Shown here: piece by piece, positions 7,388 to 21,727 of the stretch
How the letters are laid out: each line of letters opens with the position of its first letter
How positions within the stretch are numbered: the stretch's first letter is position 1
Origin: a virus
Reading direction: 5' to 3' (one strand)
IMG/VR virus record: IMGVR_UViG_3300035034_002228
Coordinates: 1 to 64,000 of that record
DNA length: 64,000 bases
Position numbers and translations under genes: made by a program
Notes under the pieces: generated by a model
Told to the model about the DNA's origin: nothing
The model's database searches: none
Seen by the model: only the letters and a program-made list of their open reading frames with translations

Positions 7388-7480
7388 AACTCTATCCTCG
7401 TTTAAGGCAATAAGCGTCAATCTTATGATCTCAAACCATTGATCAGCCTACCAGCCCAAACGCCACGTAAAGGAGAGGTT

Positions 7481-9127
7481 ATGGCTACTGTAAACACAAC
7501 CGGTCTGTATGAATTTGATCCATACGGCACCAATCCTGATAATAAAATACCGGGTGAACTGCAGTCACTGCAAGTCCCCGGTCGGGACGACTACTATTTC
7601 ATCATCCCAAAAGCGGCCCCGTTCTTTGTCGACGGTTTTGAAATTGTGGACCACGACACTGGTCGTCCATACCTTGAAGGGCGTGATTTCCTGTTCGGGC
7701 ATTATTTCCCAGAAGGGTCGGACGCAACGGGTAAGGCCCTGGCCGGGTCGTTGCGATTCCTGAGTCGCGACATCACCGGCATCGTCCGAATGACATACCA
7801 GACCATCGGTGGCCATTGGGGTTTTGACGATCAAGCTGTGTTGGAGGAATTGTCCAACAAGGCAATCAACCCACTGACGCGAGCGTGGAGTCAGATTGAC
7901 ACATTGCCTGCGTTGTTCCCACCAATACCGCACGACCAAGGTACGGGAGAACTCATTGGGTTTGAAGAAGTGGTTGAGGCCATTGGGGACATTGAACGGG
8001 CATTGGGTGACACCGAAGCTGGAACCGTAACCGACCACATGAACAGTCGGGAAAACCCACACAACGTCACCAAGACGCAGATTGGGTTGGAGTTTGTGCA
8101 GAACTACCCCATGGCTAACCTAGCGGAAGCGGCGGACGGTCTTCGGAGCGATCGGTATATGTCGCCAAAGACGACCGATGCGGCGGTTGTGTCGGCGGTT
8201 GATCGTGAGATTGAAAAACACCTGAATGTCGATAATCCCCACGGCACGAATAAAGCCGATGTCGGTTTGCCCCTGGTTCGGAACTTTGGGATCGCCACCG
8301 AATCCACCGCCTACAACGCGACACGTAACGACCAATACATGACACCGTACTTGGTTGGCGTTGTGCTTCAGGCTTTGAAAAGTGAAGTTCTCGACCCGCA
8401 TTTTAACGATACCAACAACCCGCACAACCTGACCGCAGCCGATATTGGTGCGATCAACATGGAAACCATTACCGCCCTGTTGGAAAACTATCTGTTAACA
8501 AACGGCACCGCTTACGACACCGCCCGGACGTTTGGGATGAACCTGGAAGGACTTAAGCAGGAAATCTTGCTGGGCACTGCCGCGAATTCCGAAATGCTGG
8601 AAGGACAAACTTACGGGGAAATCAAAGACGACCTGTACACGCAGTTTGTGTACTTCACCACCTACACGTGGGAATACACCACCGGCGATTACTTGGGTCG
8701 TCAGGAACACCTCCCGTTTTACACCATGACGGAAACCACAGAACCGCTGGTATTGATCGGGAACGTACTGGGCACCGAAGGACGCCGGGCGTTGGTGAAC
8801 ATTGAAGTGGACTGGACCACCGAGGCGGTGAACATCACCACCCTCAACGGGATTCCCCCACTGAAAGATTTTGCCATGCGGGTTATCGGGACTGGGGCCG
8901 ATAAGGCCATTGAGTTGTCCTTGGATGTTCACGAAGTGCCCGTTACCCCAATCACGTTCATCCCCGTTCATCAACCCGACGGTCAATTCCTGCCCGATCC
9001 ATCTAGCGTTGGTCCAAACCATGGGAACGGACGTACGGCGGTTCCGGCAGTTGGTGCCGGTGCACAAGACGTCACCGATACATTGATCGAGTCCTTTAAT
9101 GCGGCGTCCGATCAACTGGAAGCTTAA
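7481..9127 (+). CDS. Tail fibre/baseplate-attached structural protein with NPHNVTK repeats
   Basis: A 548-residue protein with an N-terminal domain (FDPYGTNPDNKIPGEL onwards) that is paralogous to the start of the next gene (TGKRPDNYIPGERHDL). It is followed by three copies of a shaft repeat that begins NPHNVTK, NPHGTNK or NPHNLTA and continues QIGLxxVxNY and a YMSPKT or YMTP motif. Such repeats are common in tail-fibre shafts. The C-terminal 200 residues look globular and beta-rich. ATG 7481 was chosen because AAAGGAG lies nine bases upstream; the in-frame start at 7439 has none. It forms an operon with 9141-10070. Confidence 0.78.
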   Translation: MATVNTTGLYEFDPYGTNPDNKIPGELQSLQVPGRDDYYFIIPKAAPFFVDGFEIVDHDTGRPYLEGRDFLFGHYFPEGSDATGKALAGSLRFLSRDITGIVRMTYQTIGGHWGFDDQAVLEELSNKAINPLTRAWSQIDTLPALFPPIPHDQGTGELIGFEEVVEAIGDIERALGDTEAGTVTDHMNSRENPHNVTKTQIGLEFVQNYPMANLAEAADGLRSDRYMSPKTTDAAVVSAVDREIEKHLNVDNPHGTNKADVGLPLVRNFGIATESTAYNATRNDQYMTPYLVGVVLQALKSEVLDPHFNDTNNPHNLTAADIGAINMETITALLENYLLTNGTAYDTARTFGMNLEGLKQEILLGTAANSEMLEGQTYGEIKDDLYTQFVYFTTYTWEYTTGDYLGRQEHLPFYTMTETTEPLVLIGNVLGTEGRRALVNIEVDWTTEAVNITTLNGIPPLKDFAMRVIGTGADKAIELSLDVHEVPVTPITFIPVHQPDGQFLPDPSSVGPNHGNGRTAVPAVGAGAQDVTDTLIESFNAASDQLEA

Positions 9128-9140
9128 CCGGAGGTTTTAA

Positions 9141-10070
9141 ATGTCAGTCATTGTCAATAAGTACCCATTGGATCTGACGGGTAAACGTCCGGACAACTAT
9201 ATTCCGGGCGAGCGTCACGATCTGGATGCGGCAGTCACCACGGGTAATTACCGTGTGTTCGTGCCAAACTACGGTGGATTCTACACGCAGGACATGGTTG
9301 TCCGCGATGTGTCGGGTACCCCGTTGCGTAAAGGGGAGGATTACATCGCCACATACCTCTATGAACGACCGACCCTGAGGAGCGGTCTGGAAGTGTGTGG
9401 TGCGGTTGTTATTGTTAACCCCAACGTGTCCACCACAGTGTTCATGGACTACCAAGTGGTGGGGGGCGACTTCGCGGTTTCCACCGACGCCCTGCAGCAA
9501 GTGCTCAACACTTTGGCCGAAGAAGATCGGCCGGTTGAATGGGCCAACATCATTGGAAAACCGAACGAGTACCCCGCCGCTGGACACCTACACGCTCTGT
9601 GGGAACTGTACGGATTCGAACCGGTTGTCACCGAACTGGAACGGATTACCCAAGCGATCATGGCAGGCGATCAAGCCCTGCATGATGAAACCCGTGCGTA
9701 CGCTCTTACGCTGTTTGAAGAAGCCGGTGAAGCGCGGGACGCGCTGGAACGTCGCTTGGTTGACCACATGGAAGACGGGACCAATCCCCACGACGTGACG
9801 AAAGCACAAGTTGGGTTAGGTGACGTTGAGAATTACAAGATGGCCACCGATGTCCAAGCGGCCGCCATGGACGTCAAAACGCGTTACATGTCACCCCATG
9901 CGGTGGGCGTGGCCCTAGCCACACACGCCAATCCGAACGTGAATCACCACGACGGTCGGTACGTGAGAATCAGTACCACCGAAGAGACAAGCTTGCGGGT
10001 AAACAACAATCGACTTCAAGCCTATGTTAATGGCGGTTGGAAAACGATTTGGCCGGCACAGTGGGTGTAA
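9141..10070 (+). CDS. Tail fibre/baseplate structural protein, paralogue of the preceding gene
   Basis: A 309-residue protein with the same N-terminal attachment-like domain as its neighbour (PDNYIPGE, then YxxFVPNYGGFY, EDY and MDYQVVGG). It has a central helical segment and one complete shaft repeat (NPHDVTKAQVGLGDVENY, then RYMSPHAV). The short C-terminus HHDGRYVRIST resembles a fibre tail. GGAGG precedes the ATG and the gap to the upstream gene is 13 bp. The stop codon is inside the loop of a strong terminator hairpin. A shorter companion or adaptor of the larger fibre is a reasonable inference. Confidence 0.75.
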   Translation: MSVIVNKYPLDLTGKRPDNYIPGERHDLDAAVTTGNYRVFVPNYGGFYTQDMVVRDVSGTPLRKGEDYIATYLYERPTLRSGLEVCGAVVIVNPNVSTTVFMDYQVVGGDFAVSTDALQQVLNTLAEEDRPVEWANIIGKPNEYPAAGHLHALWELYGFEPVVTELERITQAIMAGDQALHDETRAYALTLFEEAGEARDALERRLVDHMEDGTNPHDVTKAQVGLGDVENYKMATDVQAAAMDVKTRYMSPHAVGVALATHANPNVNHHDGRYVRISTTEETSLRVNNNRLQAYVNGGWKTIWPAQWV

Positions 10071-10090
10071 ACCCACTGCTGCTTTTTTTT
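10059..10090 (+). terminator. Strong intrinsic terminator overlapping the stop codon
   Basis: An 8-bp perfect stem (10059-10066 with 10071-10078) has a GTAA loop that includes the TAA stop of the preceding gene, and is followed by eight T residues (10083-10090). Confidence 0.92.
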
Positions 10091-10107
10091 ACTTGGTGGC
10101 CTGATCG

Positions 10108-10113
10108 TATAGT
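10108..10113 (+). promoter_or_regulatory. Candidate -10 element TATAGT before the radical SAM operon
   Basis: TATAGT lies 36 bases upstream of the first radical SAM gene, directly after a strong terminator, so a new promoter is required here. The same hexamer occurs before the second radical SAM operon (17711). No convincing -35 box is seen. Confidence 0.4.
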
Positions 10114-10148
10114 AGTGACATTCATTCGATTTTAAACGAGGACGTACC

Positions 10149-11285
10149 ATGCGTGAATTGATGGTCTACCTGAAAACTACCGAAACCTGTCAGTTAAACT
10201 GTCAGCACTGTTTCACCAGTGGTACTAACGGTAAGAAAGGATGGTTTGATCCCGAAGCCACCGTTGACTTCTTTAAACGATTGAAGCAGCAGTTTCCAAC
10301 GTATCGTTCCGCCAACATCTCGTTCCATGGGGGCGAGCCGATGCTCTGTCCCTTGGAGAAAATGGAATACGTGTTCGACGAGCTTGACGGTTTGTGGGAC
10401 AACTTGAGTTGGGGGATTCAAACCAACCTTACCTACAAGCTGACCGACGAACGTTTGGCGTTCCTCAAGAAAGTTTCCGGCACGTCCATCGGCACGTCAT
10501 GGGACTACAGCATCCGGTGGCAAGGCAACCGGAATCAAGAAGCTCTGTGGGAAGAAAACGTCCGTCGCCTGGTGGCAGAAGGCATCGACGTTACGGTCAT
10601 GATTTGCGTATCCAAAGACTTGATGGAAGTGGAACCCATTGACGTCATCAACAAGATGATTGATTTAGGGGTAAACTTCATCAACTTCGAACGGATCACT
10701 GAAAACGGAAACGCCCGTGAGAACACCGGTATTTTCCCCACCAACTTGGAACTCGATGCGTGGTTCCTTAAAATGTGGGAACAAACACTGGAACATAAAG
10801 CGTACGAACGAATTCTGAATATGTTCGTTGAGAGTCTACTGACCAGTACCGTCTTTAATACGTTCTCTGGATGCCGCAGTCGTGAGTGCGAGCAGAAGAT
10901 CCTCACGTTGAACGCGGACGGGACCATCGGTGGTTGTCCCAATGGCGCCCCGGAAACAACCTTCGGACGTCTGGATCAAACCATAAACGAAATCGTATTT
11001 TCCGAAGGTCGTGGTTGTAACATCGCCAATGAAAGTACCTTGAACGAGGTGTGTTACACGTGTGATGTGTTTGATGTGTGTAACGGCGACTGTCACCAAC
11101 TTAACTGGCATGGGGATATCTGTGCTTCACCCAAATCCATGATGCGGGCAATGAAAAACACCAGCCAGGAGCAACTGCGGGAAGTACTTAATGGATTCAT
11201 GGGCGACGAAGGCATTCGGTACGAGAAAGAACCGTCGGCACTGACCATCGACCCAAACACCATCCCGATTGTGGAGGTTACCTGA
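10149..11285 (+). CDS. Radical SAM/SPASM-type peptide or protein maturase (rSAM 1)
   Basis: Radical SAM enzymes use a 4Fe-4S cluster to cleave S-adenosylmethionine and start radical chemistry. The CxxxCxxC motif is at Cys14, Cys18 and Cys21, followed by the SAM-binding HGGEPML. The C-terminal third carries many Cys residues (SGCRSREC, GGCPNGA, CYTCDVFDVCNGDCH, DICASP) in the arrangement of a SPASM domain, which binds extra clusters and is typical of enzymes acting on peptides. At 378 residues the length is normal for the class. It begins one base after the promoter-led leader (ATG 10149) and ends 1 bp before the likely substrate gene, with which it must be translated together. The exact reaction cannot be told from sequence. 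Confidence 0.9.
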   Translation: MRELMVYLKTTETCQLNCQHCFTSGTNGKKGWFDPEATVDFFKRLKQQFPTYRSANISFHGGEPMLCPLEKMEYVFDELDGLWDNLSWGIQTNLTYKLTDERLAFLKKVSGTSIGTSWDYSIRWQGNRNQEALWEENVRRLVAEGIDVTVMICVSKDLMEVEPIDVINKMIDLGVNFINFERITENGNARENTGIFPTNLELDAWFLKMWEQTLEHKAYERILNMFVESLLTSTVFNTFSGCRSRECEQKILTLNADGTIGGCPNGAPETTFGRLDQTINEIVFSEGRGCNIANESTLNEVCYTCDVFDVCNGDCHQLNWHGDICASPKSMMRAMKNTSQEQLREVLNGFMGDEGIRYEKEPSALTIDPNTIPIVEVT

Positions 11286-11286
11286 C

Positions 11287-11829
11287 ATGGCGGATTTAAA
11301 ACGAAGTGATTTTCACGCAGCCGTAAATTCTAATATTAACCAGTATGCCAAGGATCAGGCTCGATGGTGGAAGGGTAACGGCAGAAGCGGAAGTTATATG
11401 AACAACGGACCCCTGGTGTATTTGTCCCATTTCGATCGTGGGACTTCGGCAGCGACCGGGGATGCCGATGCCAGTAACGTGGTGGCTGTTATTAAAGCCG
11501 AAGCCGAACGTTGTACCTCCATGCGGAAAGTGTATACAGCCCGTTATTATTCGGGAAGTTATTACGGAAATGGGGACCGGCGTAAAGTCCGGGGCATTGC
11601 GGCCTTGAACTCCAACTACAGCCAGTCCATTTACAGTTTGAAAACGGCAGGTGGGCACCCCAACTACGTGTCCACAAATAACAACGCCGATTGGTCGAAT
11701 TTGAGTGACCTAATCCAATCCGTTCAAGACGATCTGTACGACAAAATCCACAAAAGCGGTGTTGTGGATTTGTCGGTTTGTCATTCAAAGTGTCATGGTA
11801 ACTGCCATTCCTCAAGGAATAGACGATGA
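11287..11829 (+). CDS. Candidate radical SAM substrate with C-terminal CHxx repeats
   Basis: A 180-residue protein: a polar N-terminal part rich in Ser, Asn, Gly and Tyr, then a helical segment and the C-terminal sequence CHSKCHGNCHSSRNRR. The three CH pairs (Cys165-His166, Cys169-His170, Cys173-His174) are spaced exactly four residues apart and followed by an Arg-rich end. It starts at ATG 11287, nine bases after GGAGG, which itself sits inside the end of the rSAM 1 gene. Tight coupling to a SPASM-type maturase and a short repeated Cys/His tail are what RiPP-type precursors look like, although 180 residues is long for one. It could instead be a metal-binding partner protein. The substrate role is inference. 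Confidence 0.7.
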   Translation: MADLKRSDFHAAVNSNINQYAKDQARWWKGNGRSGSYMNNGPLVYLSHFDRGTSAATGDADASNVVAVIKAEAERCTSMRKVYTARYYSGSYYGNGDRRKVRGIAALNSNYSQSIYSLKTAGGHPNYVSTNNNADWSNLSDLIQSVQDDLYDKIHKSGVVDLSVCHSKCHGNCHSSRNRR

Positions 11830-12896
11830 TACGATTACTGAAAAATCTGACGCTGGATTACAGCTTTTCAAGTCCCAGTGGAATGGCTGACCCTAAGGAC
11901 CTCGTGTATATCAATTACCTGGGGTCTAAAACGTTCTCTGCCGACTCAGAACCTTTAATGAAATACCCCAAGTTAGACGTTCTGTTGGATGCGCCGGGCG
12001 GGCTCAATGATTTTTTAGAAACGGTAGTCCTCAGTGGTCGCTCCGTTACTGCGTTTGTGGACGAGATCGATTTAAATCGTTTCTACGTGCATTTCCTCAG
12101 AGGGGTGTTTCCAAACATCACACTTGAGAACACACATCGTTTATTGCGACTCACGGTAGTGGATCAGAAACACAGCCAAACAAACCGGTCGACAAAAGTG
12201 GCGGTAAATCGGGAGGGCAAGCTTGGTCTTACCTTACCGACCCCAATGCAGACTCGAATTTGGTTTGAAGGAGCAGCCAAACAGAACGAGTTCTCAGACA
12301 CGGTGAAAGAAAACGTCTCCATTGAATATTTGATGTTAAATGCATTGGCCGTCAACTACGATCCACACGACCCATTCGTGGTGTATTTCCGTGAGCGACT
12401 GGATGACCTGTTATGGGACATGCTGACGGCGGATTACACAAAACGACGTCGGAAGTTACTGTTGGGTATCTTTAAGTTAAAAGAAAACTTAGATATCGAC
12501 ATCGACCCGTTTGCCGACGACCTGGAGTCTCAAATCGCAGAGCTGGACGCAAAGCTCGGGCTGGACGGTTCTATTAACGAGAAGACAGCCGCCAATGCAC
12601 AACGAATTCACAACACGATCGTGTCGATCAACAAAAAGAACGGCATTGTTGAGGATTTTAAAGAGCTTATTGCACGCTTCTTTTTAAACGACCATGGCAT
12701 CACGCATGACGAGTTTGTTGAACTGATCAAAACCGACCGGCGTCAACCATGGAGTGCTTTATTCGGGCGCAATAAAATGCTGCGTGGTACTGGTTCGCTA
12801 ATATTCAGTTATCTACACAGTGCTACAGCTGATAAACTCTCTGACATGCGTCTGACAAACACAGAGGAAAGTGATCATGCTTCACTTAATAGATGA
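11826..12896 (+). CDS. Unknown protein, tandem paralogue 1 of 3
   Basis: A 356-residue protein that I cannot assign. It overlaps the stop of the upstream candidate substrate by ATGA and the start of the next paralogue by 20 bases, so translation is coupled. Shared features with the next two genes are an N-terminal LLxxLxxDYSF, a VxxFLRxVFPxI-type helix before HRLLRL, a conserved central SIEYLMLNALAVNYDPHDPF, and a C-terminal WSALFGRNKM then YL. There is no signal peptide, membrane segment or metal motif. Its position between a radical SAM enzyme and its probable substrate on one side and further radical SAM genes on the other suggests a role in the same pathway, for example as scaffold or substrate. 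Confidence 0.75.
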   Translation: MIRLLKNLTLDYSFSSPSGMADPKDLVYINYLGSKTFSADSEPLMKYPKLDVLLDAPGGLNDFLETVVLSGRSVTAFVDEIDLNRFYVHFLRGVFPNITLENTHRLLRLTVVDQKHSQTNRSTKVAVNREGKLGLTLPTPMQTRIWFEGAAKQNEFSDTVKENVSIEYLMLNALAVNYDPHDPFVVYFRERLDDLLWDMLTADYTKRRRKLLLGIFKLKENLDIDIDPFADDLESQIAELDAKLGLDGSINEKTAANAQRIHNTIVSINKKNGIVEDFKELIARFFLNDHGITHDEFVELIKTDRRQPWSALFGRNKMLRGTGSLIFSYLHSATADKLSDMRLTNTEESDHASLNR

Positions 12897-13917
12897 CATC
12901 CGAGCGGACTTTTCATTCACGTCCATCGGACTCAAAAAACCAACCGATACGTTCGTTTATTTAGACGATCGAACGCACACCTCAGGGGATCACCATTTTG
13001 AGGGTGTGATGGAGTTTGATGGGTTGAAAGACGCAATGGATCAATTTGGGGATTTACCTACCTTGATTGAGACAGTGTTGTTGCTGGAAGGGGACGTCTG
13101 GTTAATGCTAGACCCTGACGACATGTACCAGCTGGTTGTAACACACTACCGTTCGATCTACCCGGAGTTGCCAATCGATGTGGTTCATGCGGTTCTGAGG
13201 ACGTTTTACATCCACCACCGTTTTGTGCGTGTTAAAGGGTTTGCTTACGACCATTACTCAGAGCAACTCCCCCTGCCGACCTGGGAAGACACGGAACGGC
13301 TCTACGCGAACTCCAGACATGGGAATGGGTACAGCAACGAACTCAAGAAACATTTGAGCTATGAGGTCTTGCTGGCACACGCCCTGAGTGTGGACTTCGA
13401 CAACGACGACCCGTTCGTCACTCAGTTCGCCAAAAACATCGAACGGATGTTGTGGATTTCCTGTGCCCGCGATTTTGTGAAACGGCGGATGACTGCATTC
13501 GACAACGGCTTTCAACTTAAACAGACGTTGGATCTCCCGCTCAATTTTGACCGTAACGACATTGAACGTCAGTTAGAGGTTCCGGTGGTGAAACGGTTCT
13601 TCAACCCCGACGTCACCTACAAAGATGTTGAGGCGATCAAAGCCGATTACGACTACGTCAGAAAAATGATAGCGAAGGTGGACGCACTGGTGGGTTACGG
13701 TGACGCGTACAACCCATCGCTTTTTGATTTCCTAGACCCAGGTCGTTCCTTTACCGGGTCGGTGGTAAAAGGGTTGGTTGAACTCGATCAGGAATCGTTG
13801 TGGTCCTTTATGTTTGGCCGGGAAAAACTGACCAAAGACACAAACGGGGTGTTTGTTAACTACCTTTACACTTTGGATCGAGAACAACTGACCCACTTTA
13901 CATTGAATGGTGCGTAA
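12877..13917 (+). CDS. Unknown protein, tandem paralogue 2 of 3
   Basis: A 346-residue paralogue of its neighbours: MLHLIDDIRADFSF at the start, HYRSIYPELPIDVVHAVLR, LSYEVLLAHALSVDFDNDDP in the middle, and WSFMFGREKL followed by NYLY at the end. GTG 12871 and ATG 12877 are both possible; GAGG nine bases upstream favours the ATG. It overlaps the previous gene by 20 bases and is followed by the third copy after two bases. The copies have diverged widely, so the duplication is old and each copy is probably kept for its own purpose. No function is recognisable. Confidence 0.75.
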   Translation: MLHLIDDIRADFSFTSIGLKKPTDTFVYLDDRTHTSGDHHFEGVMEFDGLKDAMDQFGDLPTLIETVLLLEGDVWLMLDPDDMYQLVVTHYRSIYPELPIDVVHAVLRTFYIHHRFVRVKGFAYDHYSEQLPLPTWEDTERLYANSRHGNGYSNELKKHLSYEVLLAHALSVDFDNDDPFVTQFAKNIERMLWISCARDFVKRRMTAFDNGFQLKQTLDLPLNFDRNDIERQLEVPVVKRFFNPDVTYKDVEAIKADYDYVRKMIAKVDALVGYGDAYNPSLFDFLDPGRSFTGSVVKGLVELDQESLWSFMFGREKLTKDTNGVFVNYLYTLDREQLTHFTLNGA

Positions 13918-13919
13918 AC

Positions 13920-14954
13920 ATGTTGCATTTGCTGGACAAGGTCTACGTTGATTACGACTTTACTGGAAACATTGGTCGCAACAACCTAATCTACGTAGGT
14001 CCCATGGGTATGTTGAAACACACCCACGGTCCGAAACCGCTTTATCAGTTTCCTTCATTGAATACCATCGTTCGGGAATTTGGTGATATACCAACGTTTA
14101 TCGAATGTTTGACACCCCTCGGACAGAAGACCATTATTTTAATGGACGAAGGTTCGATGAACCAATTGCTGGTAACGTGGCTTCGTTCGGTCTTCCCTAA
14201 GATAACCGCCAAAATGGTGCACCGTTTTTTAAAGTTAAACGCAGTGAACCATAAGTACGAACACGGAAGTCGCACCAGTACCAAAGGTTCTCGGAAAGAC
14301 GGGTTTCGAAACCTCACGATTCCCACGTTGGACGATGTTGAGGGAATGTGGAACGATCTGAAAGCGGTTCCCTTGTCCATGGAGCTCAAAGAACGGGTGA
14401 GTTTTGAGTACTTACTGGCACACGTGCTTCTGATGGACTTCCACCCGACCGATCGGTTTGTGAAAGCATTCGTTCAGCGCATGGAGACCATCCTTTGGAA
14501 GTCGGTCGCTTGGGATTTTGTTGGTGTTCGGCGGGACTTACTGTACGGCATGTATAATCTGAAAGAGAACTTTGGTTTGGGTGTGGACTTAGAACAAGAC
14601 GACATCGATGACCAAATTGAAGCCCTTGAGGACACGGTGTTGTTTAACCCAGACAACCATCCTGGGAATGTGGAGTTCATCAAAGACAACCATGCGGCCA
14701 TCCGTGAAATGGTCGAAAAGGTCCATGCAATGAATGGCACGACTGACCCTTTCTTGAATCAGTTGTTGCGGATTTTGCCCAACGGGGTGTTCACTGAAGT
14801 TAAAGCCAAAGAACTGATCGACGAAGACCGGCGGGCGCATTGCAGTCAGATCTTTGGTCGAACGGAGTTTCGGGACAACATGAACAATAACTTCATTGGG
14901 TATCTGTACCGTGCCTCCTGGTCCGAACTCGAAAAAATGAATCTTAACGAATGA
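13920..14954 (+). CDS. Unknown protein, tandem paralogue 3 of 3
   Basis: A 344-residue third copy: MLHLLDKVYVDYDF at the N-terminus, WLRSVFPKITAKMVHRFLK, the conserved VSFEYLLAHVLLMDFHPTD block, and CSQIFGRTEF then FIGYLY at the end. It begins two bases after the stop of copy 2, so it is certainly in the same operon. Like the others it is soluble and largely alpha-helical by composition, with a basic middle region (SRTSTKGSRK). I cannot assign a function. Confidence 0.75.
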   Translation: MLHLLDKVYVDYDFTGNIGRNNLIYVGPMGMLKHTHGPKPLYQFPSLNTIVREFGDIPTFIECLTPLGQKTIILMDEGSMNQLLVTWLRSVFPKITAKMVHRFLKLNAVNHKYEHGSRTSTKGSRKDGFRNLTIPTLDDVEGMWNDLKAVPLSMELKERVSFEYLLAHVLLMDFHPTDRFVKAFVQRMETILWKSVAWDFVGVRRDLLYGMYNLKENFGLGVDLEQDDIDDQIEALEDTVLFNPDNHPGNVEFIKDNHAAIREMVEKVHAMNGTTDPFLNQLLRILPNGVFTEVKAKELIDEDRRAHCSQIFGRTEFRDNMNNNFIGYLYRASWSELEKMNLNE

Positions 14955-14963
14955 GGTAATCAC

Positions 14964-15656
14964 ATGATCACAGTACCCCTGCCCATGAAAGAACTGCACG
15001 AGGTCATCAGTGACAACAGCAAAGTCTATGATGTCGATTACAGCAACTCCAAGATCAAAGGGAAGCCGTTCGTTTTCTATCTGGCCAACCTGAACGTGAA
15101 GACACGGATTAATGTCGAGACACTGACCAAAGAAGAACTCAAAGAGCTTCTGGTGATATACATGACGATCAACACACCGTTCAAGTGTGAAGAACTCAAC
15201 GTCTTGGTCATGTTGACGTTACTGCACTTCATGGAGGGCGATACGTCGGGAATAACCACTTTTGATTTACCCGACGGGTTCTTGGACGAATTCGTTGAGG
15301 AGAACCAAGATCTCATGGCTCGGTATTTCCTCTTTTGTTCTTCAATGATCAAATACTGCGACTACATTCGAAGTATCTCGGATGACAAAGAGCCCGACCT
15401 TCGCGGTTACGATGGGACCATTGACGACCCGAAATACATTGGGGTGAATGTGGTGTGGCTTTTTGAGATCCCTTCGTTCTTCGAGCTGTTCTTTTCGGCG
15501 CGGGACCCTCAGGACTACCCACAAGTGTACTTCCCGGTTCAGTTTGAAGAGTACATGTTCAATGGTAAGAACTTGTTTTACTTCTTCGTGGGTGATAAAG
15601 AAAACCCCAACTGGTTGCTTCTGAACAAAACCGCACTGGAGAAATTACATGACTGA
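14964..15656 (+). CDS. Unknown acidic protein in the radical SAM operon
   Basis: A 230-residue acidic, aromatic-rich protein with no recognisable family. It has a helical middle part (LTKEELKELLVIYMTINTPF) and a Phe/Tyr-rich end (FFELFFSARDPQDY, NGKNLFYFFVGD). GAGG precedes the ATG at 14964. It overlaps the next radical SAM gene by eight bases, which suggests the two products are made in similar amounts and may act together, for example as substrate or partner protein. There is no Cys-rich tail and no membrane segment. Confidence 0.7.
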   Translation: MITVPLPMKELHEVISDNSKVYDVDYSNSKIKGKPFVFYLANLNVKTRINVETLTKEELKELLVIYMTINTPFKCEELNVLVMLTLLHFMEGDTSGITTFDLPDGFLDEFVEENQDLMARYFLFCSSMIKYCDYIRSISDDKEPDLRGYDGTIDDPKYIGVNVVWLFEIPSFFELFFSARDPQDYPQVYFPVQFEEYMFNGKNLFYFFVGDKENPNWLLLNKTALEKLHD

Positions 15657-16653
15657 GAACATGGAAAATCTGATCCCACTGGTGGAGCTAGTGGAAGCGA
15701 AGCGGGGACCGAATAAAGAATTTTTTATCAACTTCTTTGAACGGTGCAACTTGCAATGTGGTTTTTGTTGGCAGGACCATGACGACTGGACAGGGGTTGA
15801 CCAAATCGTTGAAAAAGCCGAGTTGGTGATCAATAACACAAATGACCACGACTTCTACAGTGTGAATGTCATGGGTGGGGAGTTGTTCATGGACGAACTC
15901 CCCGATAGTGTGTTTGACGATTACTTAGAATTCTGCCGTCGGGTTGTGGTGTCGGTGAAACACTGCGAGATAAACTTTGTCACAAACCTGGTGTTCGAGA
16001 AAACCGAACGTGTTGTTCGGTTTGTGAAAACGTTGGAAGAAGCACTGATACCTTTTACGTTTTGCACGTCGTACGATGTGTCGGGCCGTTTTAACACAAA
16101 AACGTTTGCCACGTTTGAACGAAACCTCGCGGTTTTCAAACCATGGCTTTCCAACATCTCAGTGGTGTTGACGCGCCCCAACATCGAACGGTTCATGCGT
16201 CGTCCCGATGTGGCGCTGGATCGCCTGTACAAGGAATACCCGATTTTCTTTGATTACTATTCCCCCGAAGACAACGTCGAGGTACTTCAACCAACGGATG
16301 TGGAGCTGGTCGACTTTTACCTATGGTTAAACGAAAACTACCCGGAGAGTCAACCGATCAAAGCCTTTCGGGAGAACCAGCACAACCCAGCAACGTGTCG
16401 GAGTTCGTTCATCATCCTACCAACCGGGATGACCGGCTCGTGTAGAGTGTTGGCGGACCGCGACCAGTTTAAATCGGACCCAACTGTTGTGGATAACATC
16501 CATGAGTCGGAAGCACGGTTCATTCAGGAACGGGAGTGTTTGAGTTGTGAGTTCTACCAGAAATGCGGGTTGGGATGCTTTCTTCACAGCGACCATGTGA
16601 ACATCACCAATAAACACTGCGAGTTCAAACGACTATATGGAGAACTCGCGTGA
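15649..16653 (+). CDS. Radical SAM protein with Cys-rich C-terminus (rSAM 2)
   Basis: A 334-residue radical SAM enzyme. The cluster motif CNLQCGFC is at Cys33, Cys37 and Cys40 and is followed by the SAM-contacting VMGGELF. The end of the protein has a SPASM-like set of cysteines (TCRSSFIILPTGMTGSCR, ECLSCEFYQKCGLGCF, then HC), consistent with an auxiliary cluster. It overlaps its upstream neighbour by eight bases and the next radical SAM gene by GTGA. Two radical SAM genes translated in tandem suggest sequential steps or a heteromeric pair. Substrate unknown. Confidence 0.88.
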   Translation: MTENMENLIPLVELVEAKRGPNKEFFINFFERCNLQCGFCWQDHDDWTGVDQIVEKAELVINNTNDHDFYSVNVMGGELFMDELPDSVFDDYLEFCRRVVVSVKHCEINFVTNLVFEKTERVVRFVKTLEEALIPFTFCTSYDVSGRFNTKTFATFERNLAVFKPWLSNISVVLTRPNIERFMRRPDVALDRLYKEYPIFFDYYSPEDNVEVLQPTDVELVDFYLWLNENYPESQPIKAFRENQHNPATCRSSFIILPTGMTGSCRVLADRDQFKSDPTVVDNIHESEARFIQERECLSCEFYQKCGLGCFLHSDHVNITNKHCEFKRLYGELA

Positions 16654-17633
16654 GCATTGAAAAATTCAATTCATTTGAGTTGCAGTTAGAAATACTGGCT
16701 GGGTGCGCGTTTAACTGCGTCGGGTGTCACGTCGATCGGGAGTCCCCAAACAAAGCGACCGATAAGATGTATCGGGTAGCCTACGAGTTCTTAGAACAAG
16801 TCGACCCCTACGCTGTTGTGATAGGGAGTACCGACATCTTCACCGCCACCAATACCCTGGAAGTCTTAAACGACATCCGGTTGACCGAACTGATAAAACG
16901 GTTTGACCGACTGGTGGTTAACTCCACCATGGTGAAGCCGAACACGGCTGTACTGGACGCCATTACACGCTTGGGTATGAAGGAAGTTCAAGTGAACATC
17001 GTGATTCCCGAATCGAAGAACTTAAACGAGCGGTACAACACTGTGGTGTCCGAAAAGGTCCGGGAAGTAAAGGAGCGCTTTCCAGATTTGATCCTACATC
17101 CGCAATTGAACCTGAGCGGTTCATTGACCGTTGACAACTACGAAGAGTTGAACGATTTCTACATACGTCACTACGGACAAGGTGTGGATTTCAATCTGTC
17201 GTTTGCTCGCACCAGTTCGGACCCGAATAAGTATCGGGCGGCGTTTGATTGGCTGAAAAAGGTTACGGCAACCACCAGTGCCACCGTTGATGGATGTATG
17301 GATGGCCAACACGTGGATGTGGTCAGTCCCCACGACAAGCTGGAACGGGTGATCATTTTCTACGAAAACGAATTCTACGCCATCCCCATCGTTTACGAAG
17401 ATCTTATTCAAATTCGCGAACGTTATCGGATATCTGGACTCGATGAATACCGTAAGAAATACGATACGGTGGTTTTAGAGCAGTATGCCTACACGGTAAA
17501 AACCGATGAGTGCGGTGAGTGTCCATTTCTACCGACATGTCTTGACCATCGTGTTTTGGCGGTTATGGAAGATTACGACATCACCAGCTGTATACTCCCC
17601 AAGGAAACCATTGCCAGAGTCAACCAGTGGTGA
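16650..17633 (+). CDS. Radical SAM protein, divergent (rSAM 3)
   Basis: A 327-residue protein starting at GTG 16650, overlapping the previous stop. The cluster motif CAFNCVGC is at Cys19, Cys23 and Cys26, but the usual GGE motif is missing: the equivalent place reads VIGSTDIF. The C-terminus has CGECPFLPTC and a final CILP, enough for one auxiliary cluster. It may therefore be an unusual or regulatory partner of rSAM 2 rather than a standard maturase. It is the last gene of the first radical SAM operon; a terminator follows 9 bp after the stop. Confidence 0.82.
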   Translation: MSIEKFNSFELQLEILAGCAFNCVGCHVDRESPNKATDKMYRVAYEFLEQVDPYAVVIGSTDIFTATNTLEVLNDIRLTELIKRFDRLVVNSTMVKPNTAVLDAITRLGMKEVQVNIVIPESKNLNERYNTVVSEKVREVKERFPDLILHPQLNLSGSLTVDNYEELNDFYIRHYGQGVDFNLSFARTSSDPNKYRAAFDWLKKVTATTSATVDGCMDGQHVDVVSPHDKLERVIIFYENEFYAIPIVYEDLIQIRERYRISGLDEYRKKYDTVVLEQYAYTVKTDECGECPFLPTCLDHRVLAVMEDYDITSCILPKETIARVNQW

Positions 17634-17641
17634 CGGAATAA

Positions 17642-17676
17642 AACACCCACGGTGCAAGTCCGTGGGTGTTATGTCG
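17642..17676 (+). terminator. Terminator ending the first radical SAM operon
   Basis: An 11-bp perfect stem (17642-17652 with 17660-17670) has a seven-base loop. The downstream side reads TTATGTCGAC, the conserved terminator tail seen across the window; the upstream side does not carry it. Confidence 0.85.
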
Positions 17677-17710
17677 ACTTCTATTTGTTTTCAACGCATG
17701 CGGCCAACTA

Positions 17711-17716
17711 TATAGT
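17711..17716 (+). promoter_or_regulatory. Candidate -10 element TATAGT before the second radical SAM operon
   Basis: TATAGT lies 28 bases upstream of ATG 17744, just after a terminator. It is identical to the element before the first radical SAM operon. No clear -35 box is seen. Confidence 0.4.
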
Positions 17717-17743
17717 CTTTTATTCACAGGTCGGAGACCCGTA

Positions 17744-18784
17744 ATGGATTTGATCATTAAACCAACCGAACTCTGTAACTTCGCCTGCACGTTTTGCAGT
17801 TCTACCAGCATTACCGACAACAAAACCGATGTATTAAACCTAGACTACATTGCCCGTTTTCTAGACCGGTTCCCGGAAACTAACACCATCATTGTCAATG
17901 GCGGCGACCCATTGATGCTCAAGCCGGATTATTACTGGGACATCCTTAAGCTATTGGAAGAACGGAACATGACGGAAACCATCGTTGGTTTTACCACCAA
18001 CCTCTGGGATTTCTACAAGCGCCCTGACAAATGGACCGAACTATTCCGTCATCCCCAGTTCTCTGTGTGCACCTCCTTCAACTACGGCGACAGTCGACGT
18101 ATCAGTAAGAATCGTGTTTTCACCGAAGCCGATTTCTTGGCCATCAGCGACTTGTTTCTTGAACGTGTGGGTTACCGGCCAGACTTTATTTCCGTCATTG
18201 ACGAAGACAATCGCGATACCGCCATTGACAATGTCCGATTGGCTAAACGTCTTGGGGTGGAATGCAAACTGAATTTGGCCATGGTCAGTGGTCGCCAAAA
18301 AGAACCGTTCTTGATCTCCGACGTACACGAACTTTACCTTGAGATCTACGACGAGGGGCTCATGCCGTGGGAGTACAACACCAAACAGATGGTGAACGCC
18401 CTTAATAGTTACCACACCACTTGCCCAATCAGCCGTGACTGTGACACCGGTATCCGTAATATTCACCCCAATGGCGAGTACTACAGTTGCGGTTCCTTTG
18501 GGGACGATCGGAAGTTCCCCATCGATTTCAATAAAGAGATGGAAAGTGACACCATCGCCACGCCCTTGTCCAAAGAGATCACCATGCGGTCCATGCATGA
18601 CGGCTGTTTTGGGTGTGAGTTGTTTGCTCTGTGTAACGGCTGTCGAAAAACCATCCGTGACACGCAACAAGCAGGGCTGGTTGAAAAACATTGCACCACA
18701 ATGACCGCACTCAAACCAAGACTGTTGGAAGCGGCGGAGAAAGAACCATACGCGGTGGGAGGACTGAGTGATAGTATCGATTAA
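17744..18784 (+). CDS. Radical SAM/SPASM-type protein (rSAM 4)
   Basis: A 346-residue enzyme with CNFACTFC at Cys11, Cys15 and Cys18, immediately after a short first strand, then VNGGDPLML in place of GGE. SPASM-like cysteines are seen in NGEYYSCGSFGDD and CFGCELFALCNGC with a later HC. I start at ATG 17744 because GGAG is seven bases upstream and the cluster motif is then at the usual distance from the N-terminus; the longer frame from 17666 would run through the terminator and promoter. It overlaps the next radical SAM gene by 17 bases. Confidence 0.9.
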   Translation: MDLIIKPTELCNFACTFCSSTSITDNKTDVLNLDYIARFLDRFPETNTIIVNGGDPLMLKPDYYWDILKLLEERNMTETIVGFTTNLWDFYKRPDKWTELFRHPQFSVCTSFNYGDSRRISKNRVFTEADFLAISDLFLERVGYRPDFISVIDEDNRDTAIDNVRLAKRLGVECKLNLAMVSGRQKEPFLISDVHELYLEIYDEGLMPWEYNTKQMVNALNSYHTTCPISRDCDTGIRNIHPNGEYYSCGSFGDDRKFPIDFNKEMESDTIATPLSKEITMRSMHDGCFGCELFALCNGCRKTIRDTQQAGLVEKHCTTMTALKPRLLEAAEKEPYAVGGLSDSID

Positions 18785-19667
18785 CCCGTTGTACCGGTGT
18801 AACTTCCGGTGCAGTAACTGTTACCTAACTGAGGAACAGCTTCGGTCACGCGCTTTGTTGGACTTAGAGCAGTTAGACCGACGCTTGGCGGACATACCCG
18901 AGATTGACGCGGTTGAACTTTATGGAGGCGAAGTCACTTTATTAGACGAGAGCTATGTTAACGACCTTAAAGGTGTGGTACGTCGGTATTACGACGGTCC
19001 GATCTCCGTGACCACCAATAGTTACCAGATGCCGGAATGGATTTATCACGACGACATCGACGTCAACGTCTCTTACGATTTCAATCATCGACCACACCAC
19101 GAACAGGTGTTCACGAATCTGTTGGTTTTCTCCAGGCCGGTGAACGTTATTGTGTTGGCCACGCCAGAAGTAATGGCCGACGATGTAGACCAACAGATCG
19201 AACTAATACGCTCTCTGGTGAATTTGAACTCGGTTGAAATCAAACCTTACAGTCCAAACCAAGCCAACGATCGCGGGAACCGTAACCAAGACTACGTAGA
19301 GTACGTCAAACGCTGGATACGCGGTTTCCCTAATAATCGCTTGCGTAACAGCGCCTTGTTGAATGAGGTGGCTGACGGGGTCCGTAATGCCTTCTCCGAC
19401 GACCACGTGTACATCACGCCCGAAGGAAAGTTCGGGGTGTTGGAATTCGACGAATTCGACCGCGAATACTTTCTCCAGTTGCCGGATTTTAAAGCCTACC
19501 AGCAATGGACCAAGAACGAAAAACACAAATTGCTATCAGAAATATGTCGGGCGTGTGAGTTTAAAGGTAGGTGTTTGACCGAACATTATCGACGGAAGGA
19601 AGGTCTGGATGGGGAATGTAGTGGGTACAAATCGCTCATCGAGTGGTGGTTGGGTCGAGCGGCTTAA
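18768..19667 (+). CDS. Radical SAM protein (rSAM 5)
   Basis: A 299-residue protein, the shortest of the five, starting at GTG 18768 five bases after GGGAGG. The cluster motif CNFRCSNC is at Cys11, Cys15 and Cys18, and YGGEVTLLD supplies the GGE. Near the end CRACEFKGRC and a final Cys form a minimal auxiliary-cluster site. It overlaps rSAM 4 by 17 bases and the next gene by 59, so the three are translationally linked. Substrate and reaction are unknown. Confidence 0.88.
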   Translation: MIVSINPLYRCNFRCSNCYLTEEQLRSRALLDLEQLDRRLADIPEIDAVELYGGEVTLLDESYVNDLKGVVRRYYDGPISVTTNSYQMPEWIYHDDIDVNVSYDFNHRPHHEQVFTNLLVFSRPVNVIVLATPEVMADDVDQQIELIRSLVNLNSVEIKPYSPNQANDRGNRNQDYVEYVKRWIRGFPNNRLRNSALLNEVADGVRNAFSDDHVYITPEGKFGVLEFDEFDREYFLQLPDFKAYQQWTKNEKHKLLSEICRACEFKGRCLTEHYRRKEGLDGECSGYKSLIEWWLGRAA

Positions 19668-20031
19668 ACGCTTTCATCTCAACGGTGTTAAAACAGACTA
19701 CTTTGGGGGACACTACAACCCATGTGTCATAGTCAGCGCGGTAAAAATGATCAATGGCGACTGTGAGGCCCTTGAATTCCCCGCCAAGAGTTATTTGGTG
19801 GGGATCTGCTACGCCGACTACATCGCGCGGTATTTCAACGTGGATTTTTACGAGGTACTTTCCCACCCAACGTTGTTGCACGACGATGAGCATTTCGTTC
19901 CATATAACGAGGCGACAGCCCCGGTTTATGAGACGCTACTCCCAATGGTGTTGTCAAACGACTTCCGCACTACGGAGTTGTACGGTGTCATCATCGGGTA
20001 CTGTGAAGAAGAACTGGGACTGACTGAATGA
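19609..20031 (+). CDS. Unknown small protein coupled to rSAM 5
   Basis: A 140-residue protein in a different frame over the last 59 bases of rSAM 5. A very good SD (GGAAGGAAGG, 19594-19603) supports ATG 19609 and the long overlap. It has no recognised domain; the sequence is mixed alpha/beta with DYFGGHYNPC near residue 30 and an acidic C-terminus. It lies directly before the oxygenase-like gene (eight-base gap), so it belongs to the second radical SAM operon. A helper or substrate role is possible but unproven. Confidence 0.65.
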   Translation: MGNVVGTNRSSSGGWVERLKRFHLNGVKTDYFGGHYNPCVIVSAVKMINGDCEALEFPAKSYLVGICYADYIARYFNVDFYEVLSHPTLLHDDEHFVPYNEATAPVYETLLPMVLSNDFRTTELYGVIIGYCEEELGLTE

Positions 20032-20039
20032 GGTGATGT

Positions 20040-20180
20040 ATGAGCAGTGAGGCAATGTGGCCAACTTTTATCGAAACCCACGATCTTAGTGATGATTGCG
20101 ACTTGGATCAGGCCGTGACTGAATGCTTAATGGTGTCCAATACACTTCAGGACAAAAACAACCTACCCTTAAAAGACTGA
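20040..20180 (+). CDS. N-terminal part of a 2OG-Fe(II) oxygenase-like gene, ending at in-frame TGA
   Basis: A 46-residue frame with a good SD (GAGG six bases upstream of ATG 20040). It reads MWPTFIETHDLSDD then a helix, which looks like the usual start of phage and proteobacterial 2OG-Fe(II) oxygenases of the TIGR02466 type (a short WPTPI-like strand). The TGA at 20178-20180 is followed in the same frame by 13 sense codons and then the ATG of the next entry, so both parts appear to be one gene split by a stop. It could be a mutation, a readthrough product or two separately translated halves. Confidence 0.6.
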   Translation: MSSEAMWPTFIETHDLSDDCDLDQAVTECLMVSNTLQDKNNLPLKD

Positions 20181-20219
20181 GGTACACCCGAACTCCACCG
20201 TATCCACGAAGAGTTAATC

Positions 20220-20609
20220 ATGCCGTTGTTCTACCAACACTTGGAAAGGCGTTACCAATTCAAACCGGAAGGGGTGTCGGTGGCCAATTGGATCTTCGGT
20301 GGGAACGACGGCAGTGGCCTGGAACCCCACATCCATTCGGGTTCGCATTTTACGGCTGTTTTTTACCCAATGGTCGTCGGTGGTAGTATTGTCATGGTGG
20401 ACCCGCGATACAGTGCACAACGTGGATATCCTCGGGATTTCATCGACGGTCATTTTGGGAAGAAGAAGATCAACCCAACCGCCGGTCAATTGGTAATCAT
20501 GCCCAGTTTCCTTGAGCATTACGTCACCGGCTTTAAACAGGGACTGCGTTTGTCATTTGTAAACGACATCATTTTACGCACCGACGACGGTGATGTCCAT
20601 TTCGATTGA
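20220..20609 (+). CDS. 2-oxoglutarate/Fe(II) oxygenase-like catalytic part (TIGR02466-like)
   Basis: A 129-residue C-terminal core of a cupin-fold oxygenase. The signature is EPHIHSGSHFTAVFY, then VMVDPRYSAQRG, then the strand GQLVIMPSFLEHYV and LRLSFVND. In relatives of this family the first His motif and the late HxV His bind iron and an Arg near the end binds 2-oxoglutarate; a clear carboxylate ligand is not obvious here. Such enzymes hydroxylate proteins or small molecules. Its frame continues from the entry ending at 20180 through the in-frame TGA. GAAGAG lies six bases before ATG 20220, so independent initiation is possible. It lies at the end of the radical SAM region and 5 kb before collagen-like fibres. 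Confidence 0.7.
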   Translation: MPLFYQHLERRYQFKPEGVSVANWIFGGNDGSGLEPHIHSGSHFTAVFYPMVVGGSIVMVDPRYSAQRGYPRDFIDGHFGKKKINPTAGQLVIMPSFLEHYVTGFKQGLRLSFVNDIILRTDDGDVHFD

Positions 20610-20839: not shown

Positions 20840-21727
20840 ATGGCCGCAATCGATCAGGAGATTATTGGCGTCAGTCGTACCGTCTACGGGACGTACCTTC
20901 AGACCATCAAGAATCTCGGACTTCCGTTTACCCTCATTCAAAACACCACGTTGAACGAACGCTTTGACGTCCAGTCGGGTGTTGCACCAGAGTCACATCA
21001 AACCCCAAGCATGCGTTATTTGGCCATCGGTAACCTGGGCCACGCCACCGTCAAAGCCGACGACGGTAGCGATGAAACCGTACCGCTGGTTCACCGCGCA
21101 ACTGACGCCGGTATGTACGGTCAGATCCCGTTTGTGTTGCGTGAGTTGACAAACGATCTGCCGGCGCACGAACGTAGTCGCTACGGTCTACGGGTGTTGG
21201 AATCACACAATGGTCGTCAGTACATCGCTTATTACCTGCGTCGGATCAACATGACTCAGGTTACCCCACAGCTCCAGCGAGTTGAAATCATCGACGGTGT
21301 TTCAACCGTGGTTCCGTTTGTGCCAAGTACAGACAATCTAAACCCAGCCCGTCCAAAGATCCCCAACAGCGGTATGGTGGTGGGTTCTAACTCGTCCGAG
21401 TCCGCATCGGCGGTGGTTACCATCAGCCTTACGCCAAGTGACGTGGCTGAGATCTTGAACGCCCACCGCATCCGAACTGGATCGACTCGTTCACCGGTTA
21501 TCTCTGAATTGGCGCTGGTCTCCGGGGTGGATAAAGAAGTGTCGGGTAGCAGTGGTGGTTCGGGTAACTTCACGTACCGCGAGGTTATTGCCGCGCAGAT
21601 CAATGTACACATCTCCACGTACCACGCTTTGGGGTATTCAACCAACGGTGCTGAATTCACCCTTGACGTGGGTGGCGTTGAACCAACCTTGGGTGAAGAC
21701 GACGTCAATGGTGCCACCATTATCTAA
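20840..21727 (+). CDS. Probable virion structural protein
   Basis: A 295-residue protein with no recognised family. It opens with a helix (MAAIDQEIIGVSRTVYGTYLQTI), has a conserved-looking MRYLAIGNLGHATV, and is beta-rich afterwards, with a Gly/Ser linker (GSSGGSGNFTYRE) before a final domain. This composition and the plain SD (GGGAG) fit a neck, tail or other structural component. It stands first in a unit that continues with RuvC and the lysis genes. Confidence 0.6.
   Translation: MAAIDQEIIGVSRTVYGTYLQTIKNLGLPFTLIQNTTLNERFDVQSGVAPESHQTPSMRYLAIGNLGHATVKADDGSDETVPLVHRATDAGMYGQIPFVLRELTNDLPAHERSRYGLRVLESHNGRQYIAYYLRRINMTQVTPQLQRVEIIDGVSTVVPFVPSTDNLNPARPKIPNSGMVVGSNSSESASAVVTISLTPSDVAEILNAHRIRTGSTRSPVISELALVSGVDKEVSGSSGGSGNFTYREVIAAQINVHISTYHALGYSTNGAEFTLDVGGVEPTLGEDDVNGATII

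Follow-up and report, generated by a model that had tools for sequence, protein, structure and literature searches.

Among the described maturation systems, the closest to the locus reported here are the triceptide systems (XyeB, GrrM/OscB, FxsB, YhhB, HaaB and AmcB), in which a SPASM-like radical S-adenosylmethionine (SAM) enzyme is encoded beside a substrate with repeats, and the His-Xaa-Ser (Hxs) system, in which two or more radical SAM proteins accompany a protein with His-x-Ser repeats. Triceptide substrates carry an aromatic residue at position i and Ser, Asn, Ala or Arg at i+2, and three-residue cyclophanes join these two positions, Phe-Ser, His-Ala and His-Arg links being known (PMC11002830; here and below, each paper is cited for its accessible part). 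The present locus lies in the virus record IMGVR_UViG_3300035034_002228 of IMG/VR (81,795 bases), of which positions 1 to 64,000 were analysed and are called the window. Between positions 10,149 and 20,609 the window encodes five radical SAM proteins (rSAM1 to rSAM5), an oxygenase and, directly after rSAM1, a small protein, SUB, with a Cys/His-repeat tail at its C terminus. We consider it probable that this cassette is a phage maturation system in which radical SAM enzymes introduce cross-links or other modifications into the tail of SUB, a probably virion-associated host-recognition protein.

By analogy, the cassette would work most like the triceptide or Hxs systems, from which it is set apart by scores under the family cut-offs. 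Its tail repeats, of the type CHxS, also present an aromatic residue at i and a cross-linkable one at i+2. Unlike triceptide systems, however, it has a long phage substrate, several radical SAM paralogues, a Cys before most of the His residues, oxygenases, and the partner proteins U20767 and PAR. Against the triceptide maturase families, rSAM1 scored 36.4 bits for FxsB (cut-off 370), 36.2 for YhhB (445), 34.2 for AmcB (425) and 21.8 for XyeB (450), and rSAM5 scored 11.2 bits for GrrM/OscB (310). It differs from the Hxs system in scoring 28.0 bits for HxsB (cut-off 370) and 27.1 for HxsC (267.9), in having no relevant NCBIfam match of SUB, and in its presence in phages. The best single NCBIfam match of rSAM1 is the anaerobic sulfatase maturase (TIGR03942; 4.6e-18), with 65.4 bits against a cut-off of 349. 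Sulfatase maturases target the motif C/S-x-P/A-x-R, whereas the corresponding site is unconserved here, its Arg being absent in 24 of 73 loci. The darobactin and dynobactin maturases DarE and DynA are also among the best-scoring radical SAM/SPASM families for rSAM1 and rSAM4, but rSAM1 reached 58.0 and 49.6 bits against cut-offs of 650 and 450, and the product of DarE is a short antibiotic with cross-links built on Trp (PMC9055067).

Earlier papers take phage radical SAM genes for metabolic genes (PMC5332604, PMC7150976) or do no more than list them (PMC8066314, PMC11898562, PMC5468394). In the accessible part of PMC7029224, the host recognition cluster of pelagimyophages is described with radical SAM cassettes, without a substrate, a tail motif or a system; two similar pelagimyophages have host recognition clusters that differ solely by such cassettes, which are probably the cassettes studied here, seen piecemeal. 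A mining study of ribosomally synthesized and post-translationally modified peptides (RiPPs) connects phage infection with RiPP families, in its accessible part, by way of RiPP-encoding prokaryotes and not of phage-encoded systems (PMC11118758). We found no account of the cassette or of its tail in the open-access literature, subscription papers lying mostly outside the search. It appears to be a means, so far undescribed, by which a virus modifies one of its own proteins, and would place radical SAM protein or peptide maturation in a new biological setting.

Conservation of the tail and its pairing with rSAM1

The preliminary description of this region had proposed a protein or peptide modification system that included a small protein with a Cys/His tail. 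This protein is SUB, which ends in CHSKCHGNCHSSRNRR, and the proposal is supported by a near-invariant tail encoded at or near the first radical SAM gene in diverse phages. In five phage regions the consensus CHxxCHxxCHxxRxRR ends a small protein directly after rSAM1. An exact scan of viral contigs with the tail pattern, stop codon not included, found at least 119 stretches, and in 113 of them the gene ends exactly at the final Arg of the motif. Left out of these 113 loci were L015, L050, L064 and L067, in which the strict tail closes no reading frame; L102, in which the contig or stretch ends within the tail gene and leaves it below the length limit for open reading frames; and L125, in which the sequence stops before the tail does. 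When His was replaced by Asp in an equally degenerate control pattern, 3 matches were obtained, and the control peptide is encoded in only one of them, where it lies 99 residues ahead of a stop. The tail motif thus exceeds chance (at least 119 matches versus 3).

The window, the viral contigs, the phage records and the genome contigs together yielded 143 distinct proteins with the strict tail, mostly of 120 to 310 residues, 101 of them without Cys outside the tail. At the positions that the pattern left free, counted from the end, Ser is found at -13 in 130 proteins and at -5 in 128, Gly at -3 in 129, and either Ser (112) or Asn (27) at -9. A larger set of 190 distinct proteins, drawn from viral, phage and genome contigs and excluding bacterial variant tails, contains 573 tail His residues, and the residue two positions further on is Ser in 477 cases, Asn in 67, Ala in 20, Gln in 5 and another in 4, so that the His-x-Ser repeats of the Hxs partner protein are present here as well; the first repeat of the window tail has Lys at this position. 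The unit kept in nearly all tail variants is His-x-Ser/Asn, while the Cys varies. In an AlphaFold2 model of SUB the mean pLDDT (predicted local distance difference test) is 78.7 and that of the last ten residues is 52, that is, a part predicted with moderate confidence to be folded and a low-confidence end, as would be expected of an exposed target. Compared with solved structures by VIA-align, SUB gave a best Z of 2.3. One 231-kb contig (L041:1-10081) has four CHxN repeats in its tail and seven radical SAM genes at the locus.

Sampling was also carried out from the enzyme, by rSAM1 alignment, which returned 599 candidate stretches with at least 380 relatives; the best 80 were used, and these are the closest relatives of the query and not a random sample. 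A CHxS-type tail was present in 73 of the 73 testable loci, the other 7 of the 80 being cut by the end of the contig or locus. The strict tail accounts for 46 of them, CHxxCHxxCHxx followed by Ile/Leu for 24, and CHxxCHxxHxSRxRR for 3. The 73 loci are partly non-independent, since they encode only 61 distinct tailed proteins, 47 of which are new relative to the tail-scan set. As this sampling starts from rSAM1, the selection bias of the tail search is removed. Because one tail pairs with one radical SAM family in both search directions, SUB is the probable substrate. The enzyme-substrate pairing is strongly supported, and we infer from it that the tail is the part acted upon and that it becomes modified. 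The role of the Cys/His-tailed protein as the likely substrate is an addition to the preliminary description.

The neighbourhood of the tail is widely conserved in related phages, and the possibility raised earlier that it might not be is set aside by the following counts, which are lower bounds because many loci are short. Within the 113 viral loci, a radical SAM gene on the same strand was identified by cluster in 105, at no more than 50 bp in 85, and by profile search in 101. U20767 occurs on the same strand in 92 loci, PAR or PAR12 in 76, a cupin gene in 59 and fibre clusters in 54, the last two again on the same strand; a 2-oxoglutarate (2OG) oxygenase is found in 34, on the opposite strand in two of these. 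The common gene order is baseplate wedge (phrog_438), a phrog_358 protein, a small virion structural protein (phrog_473), tail fibre (phrog_19602), a cupin/JmjC-like gene, rSAM1, SUB, U20767, PAR, and then further radical SAM genes, oxygenases and U140, the PHROG names being matches of single cluster representatives. Loci of at least 12 kb (n=41) have a median of four radical SAM genes, with a range from none to nine. The AlphaFold2 model of U20767 has a mean pLDDT of 92.0, with no sequence match in PDB and a best structural Z of 2.2 among the chains compared. Viral matches of U20767 at an E-value of 0.001 or lower are five: RSF1, Atu_ph07, an uncultured phage, ctWb16 and ctijX18.

Two tailed genes in tandem were observed in 22 of the 113 loci (contigs L011, L034, L042, L043, L047, L053, L063, L077, L079 and others), with lengths of 124-140 residues in 20 of them, and in many of these loci rSAM3-like genes come next, together with PAR12, a separate PAR family. 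The tandem type of substrate gave no tblastn match in the phage collection. One contig, IMGVR_UViG_3300025138_000014 (L088 and L104), has tailed genes at two sites, one tandem and one single, and no radical SAM gene was seen in the stretch around the tandem site.

Radical SAM enzymes of the cassette

The five radical SAM genes that had been described were recovered at the same coordinates, with CxxxCxxC in each translation and matches to PF04055, the Radical SAM superfamily, in all five proteins; in hmmscan rSAM1, rSAM4 and rSAM5 score above the cut-off of 29.5 bits and rSAM2 and rSAM3 under it (Table 1). A search of the whole record found PF04055 in 5 places, 2 of them above the cut-off. Across cassettes the CxxxCxxC motif is present, per cluster, in 215 of 216, 80 of 81 and 11 of 12 members of at least 280 residues, the 80 of 81 being those of the rSAM3 cluster. 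Fifteen aligned rSAM1 proteins share an invariant CxxxCxxC and the invariant residues C247, C263, C302, C305, C311, C315 and C325. Cys-rich C-termini had been reported for four of the five window proteins and are, by eye, present in all five. The SPASM model TIGR04085 (cut-off 27 bits), which had been suggested as a check, gave a divided answer: rSAM1 scored 26.7 bits, rSAM4 20.6 and rSAM2 17.1, rSAM3 and rSAM5 were not listed, and a bacterial homologue reached 28.7. Motifs and profiles place the cassette enzymes in the radical SAM superfamily and probably in its SPASM subgroup. No PDB sequence matched rSAM1 at 1e-3.

A larger radical SAM protein recurs in some cassettes (a cluster in 12 loci; L155:3571-5310, L158:13568-15280, L117:3859-5526). 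As two of its members match the cobalamin-type KedN5 family, under the cut-off (84.5 versus 700 bits), methylation of the substrate by this enzyme is suggested.

Occurrence in isolated phages and link with the virion

Searches by tblastn with rSAM1 and with U20767 retrieved the same 7 of 50,697 phage records, namely the Burkholderia phages FLC6, FLC8 and SURPRISE13, Agrobacterium phage Atu_ph07 (two records), Sinorhizobium phage Phosso and Pseudomonas phage pPa_SNUABM_DT01. Queries from other contigs led to the same 7 records, and rSAM3 to 4 of them. Regions of SURPRISE13, Atu_ph07, Phosso, DT01 and FLC6 were read, and in all five a small tailed protein comes directly after rSAM1; these tailed proteins are dissimilar between lineages, and that of Phosso is XYS97446.1. 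The Burkholderia phage cassette has two dihydrofolate reductase-like genes between its radical SAM genes (L006:14001-15178, L010:14216-15429), and FLC6 has a GIY-YIG nuclease gene between the fibre-type gene and the cupin gene (L010:6452-7360) that is not in SURPRISE13.

Upstream of the cupin-rSAM1-SUB block, 52 of the 76 loci with an upstream gene carry a fibre-cluster gene there, and 42 of these 52 belong to two clusters that are assigned, through their representatives, to a PHROG tail-fibre family. In Atu_ph07, most virion proteins detected by mass spectrometry (MS) fall in three clusters of coding sequences, one of which is 170-215 (PMC6102473). In the record of this phage, the tailed protein is numbered gp170 and the major head (capsid) protein gp215; since gp170 bounds the cluster, it was probably detected in the virion. 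The fibre setting and the Atu_ph07 cluster thus favour a virion protein, without proving it.

Cassettes in bacterial genomes

The preliminary description had proposed other jumbo phages as the place to look for this neighbourhood. Jumbo phages do carry the cassette, but it is also found outside jumbo phages and outside phages. A tail scan of genome contigs found 19 stretches, 16 of which have a gene ending in the motif (L133, L134 and L140 do not), and a radical SAM neighbour was found in 12 of the 16, in one on the other strand. According to their titles, 8 of the 16 loci come from Bacteriovoracaceae, Bacteriovorax, Bdellovibrionaceae or Halobacteriovoraceae, bacteria that we presume from these family names to be predators. 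Six loci (L130, L135, L137, L138, L142 and L147) have a phage-type gene order and are probably phage contigs in bins and not bacterial cassettes. In every one of eight genomes tested (seven of the eight with these titles and that of L146), U20767 and the tail were each matched once. Across the phylum, 17 of the 368 genomes searched contain U20767; in one of them it lies on a contig of 4,153,408 bases, and so the cassette is chromosomal there. Flanking genes were read over 40 kb in three bacterial genomes, where three of ten proteins had no Pfam match; the first flank encodes a thiolase, a clostripain-family peptidase and a catalase-peroxidase, the second a pyruvate kinase and a glycosyl hydrolase 14, and the third ABC-F, PmbA/TldD, class I tRNA synthetase and AMP-binding genes. 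The cassettes of L154-L159 and L172-L179 combine such surroundings of ordinary bacterial genes with variant tails, and one of them is on the 4.15-Mb contig.

Eight further bacterial regions were found, seven of them with SUB relatives bearing variant tails, the tail of L172 being uncertain. The variant CHGNFPPPCHGSRGRR occurs in four loci, two of which have identical proteins, and the others are CHTNVPTPPPCHASRGRR, CHSNHCSHSNHGSRGRR and CHSSHSSHSSHSSRGRR. All these variants have Ser or Asn at +2 of every His and keep SRGRR, while the Cys of each repeat is not kept. Since the bacterial genomes tested for it lack the phage sheath family, as detailed below, the virion part is not the whole story, and the chromosomal version in bacteria must have a role outside the virion, perhaps in attachment.

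Proposed function and alternative explanations

In the mechanism that we propose, rSAM1 and the other radical SAM enzymes would act on the exposed CHxS-repeat tail while the N-terminal part of SUB stays folded. The cupin/JmjC-like and 2OG-Fe(II) oxygenases would add further oxidations or methylations, as might the cobalamin-type radical SAM enzyme of some cassettes, and U20767 and the PAR proteins would probably serve as binding, delivery or scaffold partners. The modified SUB would most likely be a tail component of the virion, with a rigid, cross-linked or metal-binding tip that takes part in host recognition or attachment; on balance we lean towards placing the modified product in the virion. 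Because known cyclophanes join i and i+2, with Phe-Ser, His-Ala and His-Arg among the links, three-residue His-x-Ser/Asn cross-linking, which in triceptide products is of the C-C type, is our leading guess for the chemistry, though a tentative one, and Cys thioethers are its main alternative.

Several points weigh against the proposed system. Eight of the 113 viral loci have no radical SAM gene on the same strand in the stretch examined, and 24 of the 73 loci sampled by rSAM1 end in CHxS followed by Ile/Leu, without RGRR (L200-L219 and related). SUB has no match among solved folds, profile searches giving E-values of 0.02 and 4.5 only. The SPASM score of rSAM1 falls narrowly under its cut-off, and in NCBIfam none of the window radical SAM proteins reached the cut-off of a peptide-maturase equivalog, the nearest model being the anaerobic sulfatase maturase. 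With regard to the virion, 24 of the 76 upstream genes are outside the fibre clusters and 10 of the 52 fibre-cluster genes rest on weaker labels. The probable MS detection of gp170 is read from a published cluster boundary, and the accessible part of the virion proteome of Ralstonia phage RP31 (32 proteins) names no cassette protein (PMC5468394). The phage sheath family PF04984 was found in 0 of 5 bacterial genomes tested.

The reacting residue might be the Cys and not the His, giving thioethers of the sactipeptide or ranthipeptide type or formylglycine of the sulfatase type. This is consistent with the nearest NCBIfam model of rSAM1 and with the two or more Cys seen in every phage tail, and we take the last repeat, CHxSR, to be loosely like the C-x-x-x-R site of sulfatases, which we count in favour of formylglycine. 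The sulfatase maturase score, however, lies far under its cut-off, the Arg is absent in 24 of the 73 loci, and Cys is gone from some or most repeats in the bacterial variants; we regard this chemistry as unlikely, and formylglycine on the last Cys was rejected as a general mechanism because some tails lack the Arg and some lack Cys. In the strict set, the 16 residues of the tail include three His and three Cys that never vary (the pattern requires them), and these could also form an unmodified site for Zn, Fe, Cu or Fe-S at a fibre tip or within a trimer, the radical SAM enzymes acting on another product encoded nearby. We give little weight to such a site: all the testable rSAM1 loci have a CHxS-type tail, which ties the enzyme to it, the radical SAM set is kept where a variant tail contains only one Cys beside four His, or includes a Pro spacer, and the conserved Ser/Asn at His+2 would be left unexplained. 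Radical SAM enzymes next to a C-terminal repeat core, together with an RxRR end that could serve cleavage or recognition, recall RiPP clusters, in which case SUB would be a precursor and its tail would be cut off and, once released, act against bacteria, in signalling or in superinfection exclusion. The segment ahead of the tail is long and, in the one case modelled, predicted to be folded, unlike a short leader; no protease or exporter was recognised in the recurrent gene clusters, with no search aimed at them; and the frequent fibre or baseplate setting and the place of gp170 at the border of the Atu_ph07 virion-protein cluster (PMC6102473) also make a released peptide quite improbable.

Two readings of the enzymes leave SUB aside. 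One takes them for products of auxiliary metabolic genes that serve Fe-S, tRNA or cofactor pathways, in line with PMC5332604, where the 12 radical SAM genes of a T4-like marine genome were assigned to Fe-S metabolism, and with similar wording in PMC7150976. The preliminary description had named ordinary tRNA or cofactor families as the finding that would overturn it, but no such family among those listed reached its cut-off (for two window proteins, the best 25 of 56 and the best 25 of 47), and a metabolic role has no place for the linkage to one tailed protein; this reading was rejected and appears very improbable. Viperin-like defence or antidefence enzymes are hardly credible: four of the five radical SAM proteins have weak N-terminal pVip matches (best 1e-8), but these span some 50-80 residues of the shared radical SAM core only, and the NCBIfam viperin score was 31.6 bits against a cut-off of 180. 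The candidate was rejected on these grounds.

If the proposed maturation of the SUB tail is correct, phages remodel one of their own proteins by radical chemistry with a dedicated multi-enzyme cassette, which would explain phage radical SAM genes so far taken as metabolic. It would also provide a large natural set of radical SAM enzymes matched to substrates whose motif is readable, and would open a new approach to how phages recognise their hosts and, perhaps, to how predatory bacteria recognise their prey. A wider reading, which we find doubtful, is that phages and bacterial predators have a common system that strings His-x-Ser/Asn cross-links, with Cys, at the tip of a host-recognition protein; it would amount to one chemical solution to grip bacterial surfaces, common to viral and cellular predators.

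Organization of the cassette in the window

The genes of the window cassette belong to a same-strand run that lies between the fibre-type pair (7439-10070) and position 20840 (Table 1). The whole virus record has one CHxS-type tail.

Table 1. Features of the cassette and of its upstream genes in the window.
Feature	Position	Strand	Remarks
Tail-fibre/virion-type gene	7439..9127	+	Upstream of the cassette; same cluster as 9141-10070; groups with the fib15 family
Second tail-fibre-type gene	9141..10070	+	Directly upstream; 87% identity to the same-place gene of the relative L264
Strong terminator-like hairpin	10059..10078	+	Stem of 8 pairs and T-rich tail; between fibre-type gene and cassette
rSAM1, radical SAM/SPASM-like, partner of the tailed protein	10149..11285	+	PF04055 34.4 bits; phrog_1802 1.4e-54
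SUB, small CHxS-repeat-tailed protein, proposed substrate	11287..11829	+	Among the 143 distinct strict-tail proteins
Tail CHSKCHGNCHSSRNRR and stop codon, proposed modification site	11779..11829	+	C-terminal end of SUB
PAR1, paralogue 1, function not assigned	11826..12896	+	PAR family in 69 loci; alignment
PAR2, paralogue 2	12871..13917	+	Clustering, alignment
PAR3, paralogue 3	13920..14954	+	Clustering, alignment
U20767, conserved partner protein	14964..15656	+	phrog_20767 9.4e-36; same strand in 92 of 113 viral loci
rSAM2	15649..16653	+	PF04055 20.1 bits, under cut-off; phrog_1802 5.3e-32; CNLQCGFC
rSAM3, divergent radical SAM	16650..17633	+	PF04055 19.7 bits, under cut-off; phrog_31457 6.6e-12
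rSAM4	17744..18784	+	PF04055 42.8 bits; phrog_1802 1.6e-44
rSAM5	18768..19667	+	PF04055 29.8 bits; phrog_1802 1.1e-27
U140, small conserved cassette protein	19654..20031	+	Cluster in 18 loci; 70% identity in L264; start 19654 instead of 19609 is a guess
2OG-Fe(II) oxygenase	20220..20609	+	PF13759 (2OG-FeII_Oxy_5) 32.1 bits, cut-off 27; phrog_81 2.7e-12

By clustering, the fib15 family precedes the cassette in other jumbo phages, and one SURPRISE13 member of the cluster of the first fibre-type gene carries the annotation "virion structural protein". The last part of SUB matches phrog_35144 (2.6e-4). The three paralogues that had been noted were confirmed at about 30% identity, and the oxygenase-like gene proved to belong with the phage 2OG-Fe(II) oxygenases of its Pfam and PHROG families. 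The cupin gene found upstream of rSAM1 in other viral loci is absent from 10071-10148 of the window. The two operons proposed earlier from terminators were sustained in part: the strong hairpin before rSAM1 is present, but terminator-like elements in the region (13 versus 14.7 in shuffled sequences) and promoter-like ones (6 versus 11.9) are not above the shuffles.

A related phage contig of 231,818 bases (L264) has the window genes from 10149 to 20031 in matching order. Between the two, only rSAM1 and rSAM2 of the cassette genes gave a ratio of nonsynonymous to synonymous substitutions (dN/dS), of 0.037 and 0.049, with dS about 2; dS was infinite (saturated) for SUB, PAR1-3, U20767, rSAM3, rSAM4, rSAM5, U140 and the oxygenase, and for this reason no strong claim on selection is made. 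In L264 an oxygenase gene precedes the last radical SAM gene, unlike in the window, and the best L264 match of the window oxygenase is 37% identical and located elsewhere in that contig.

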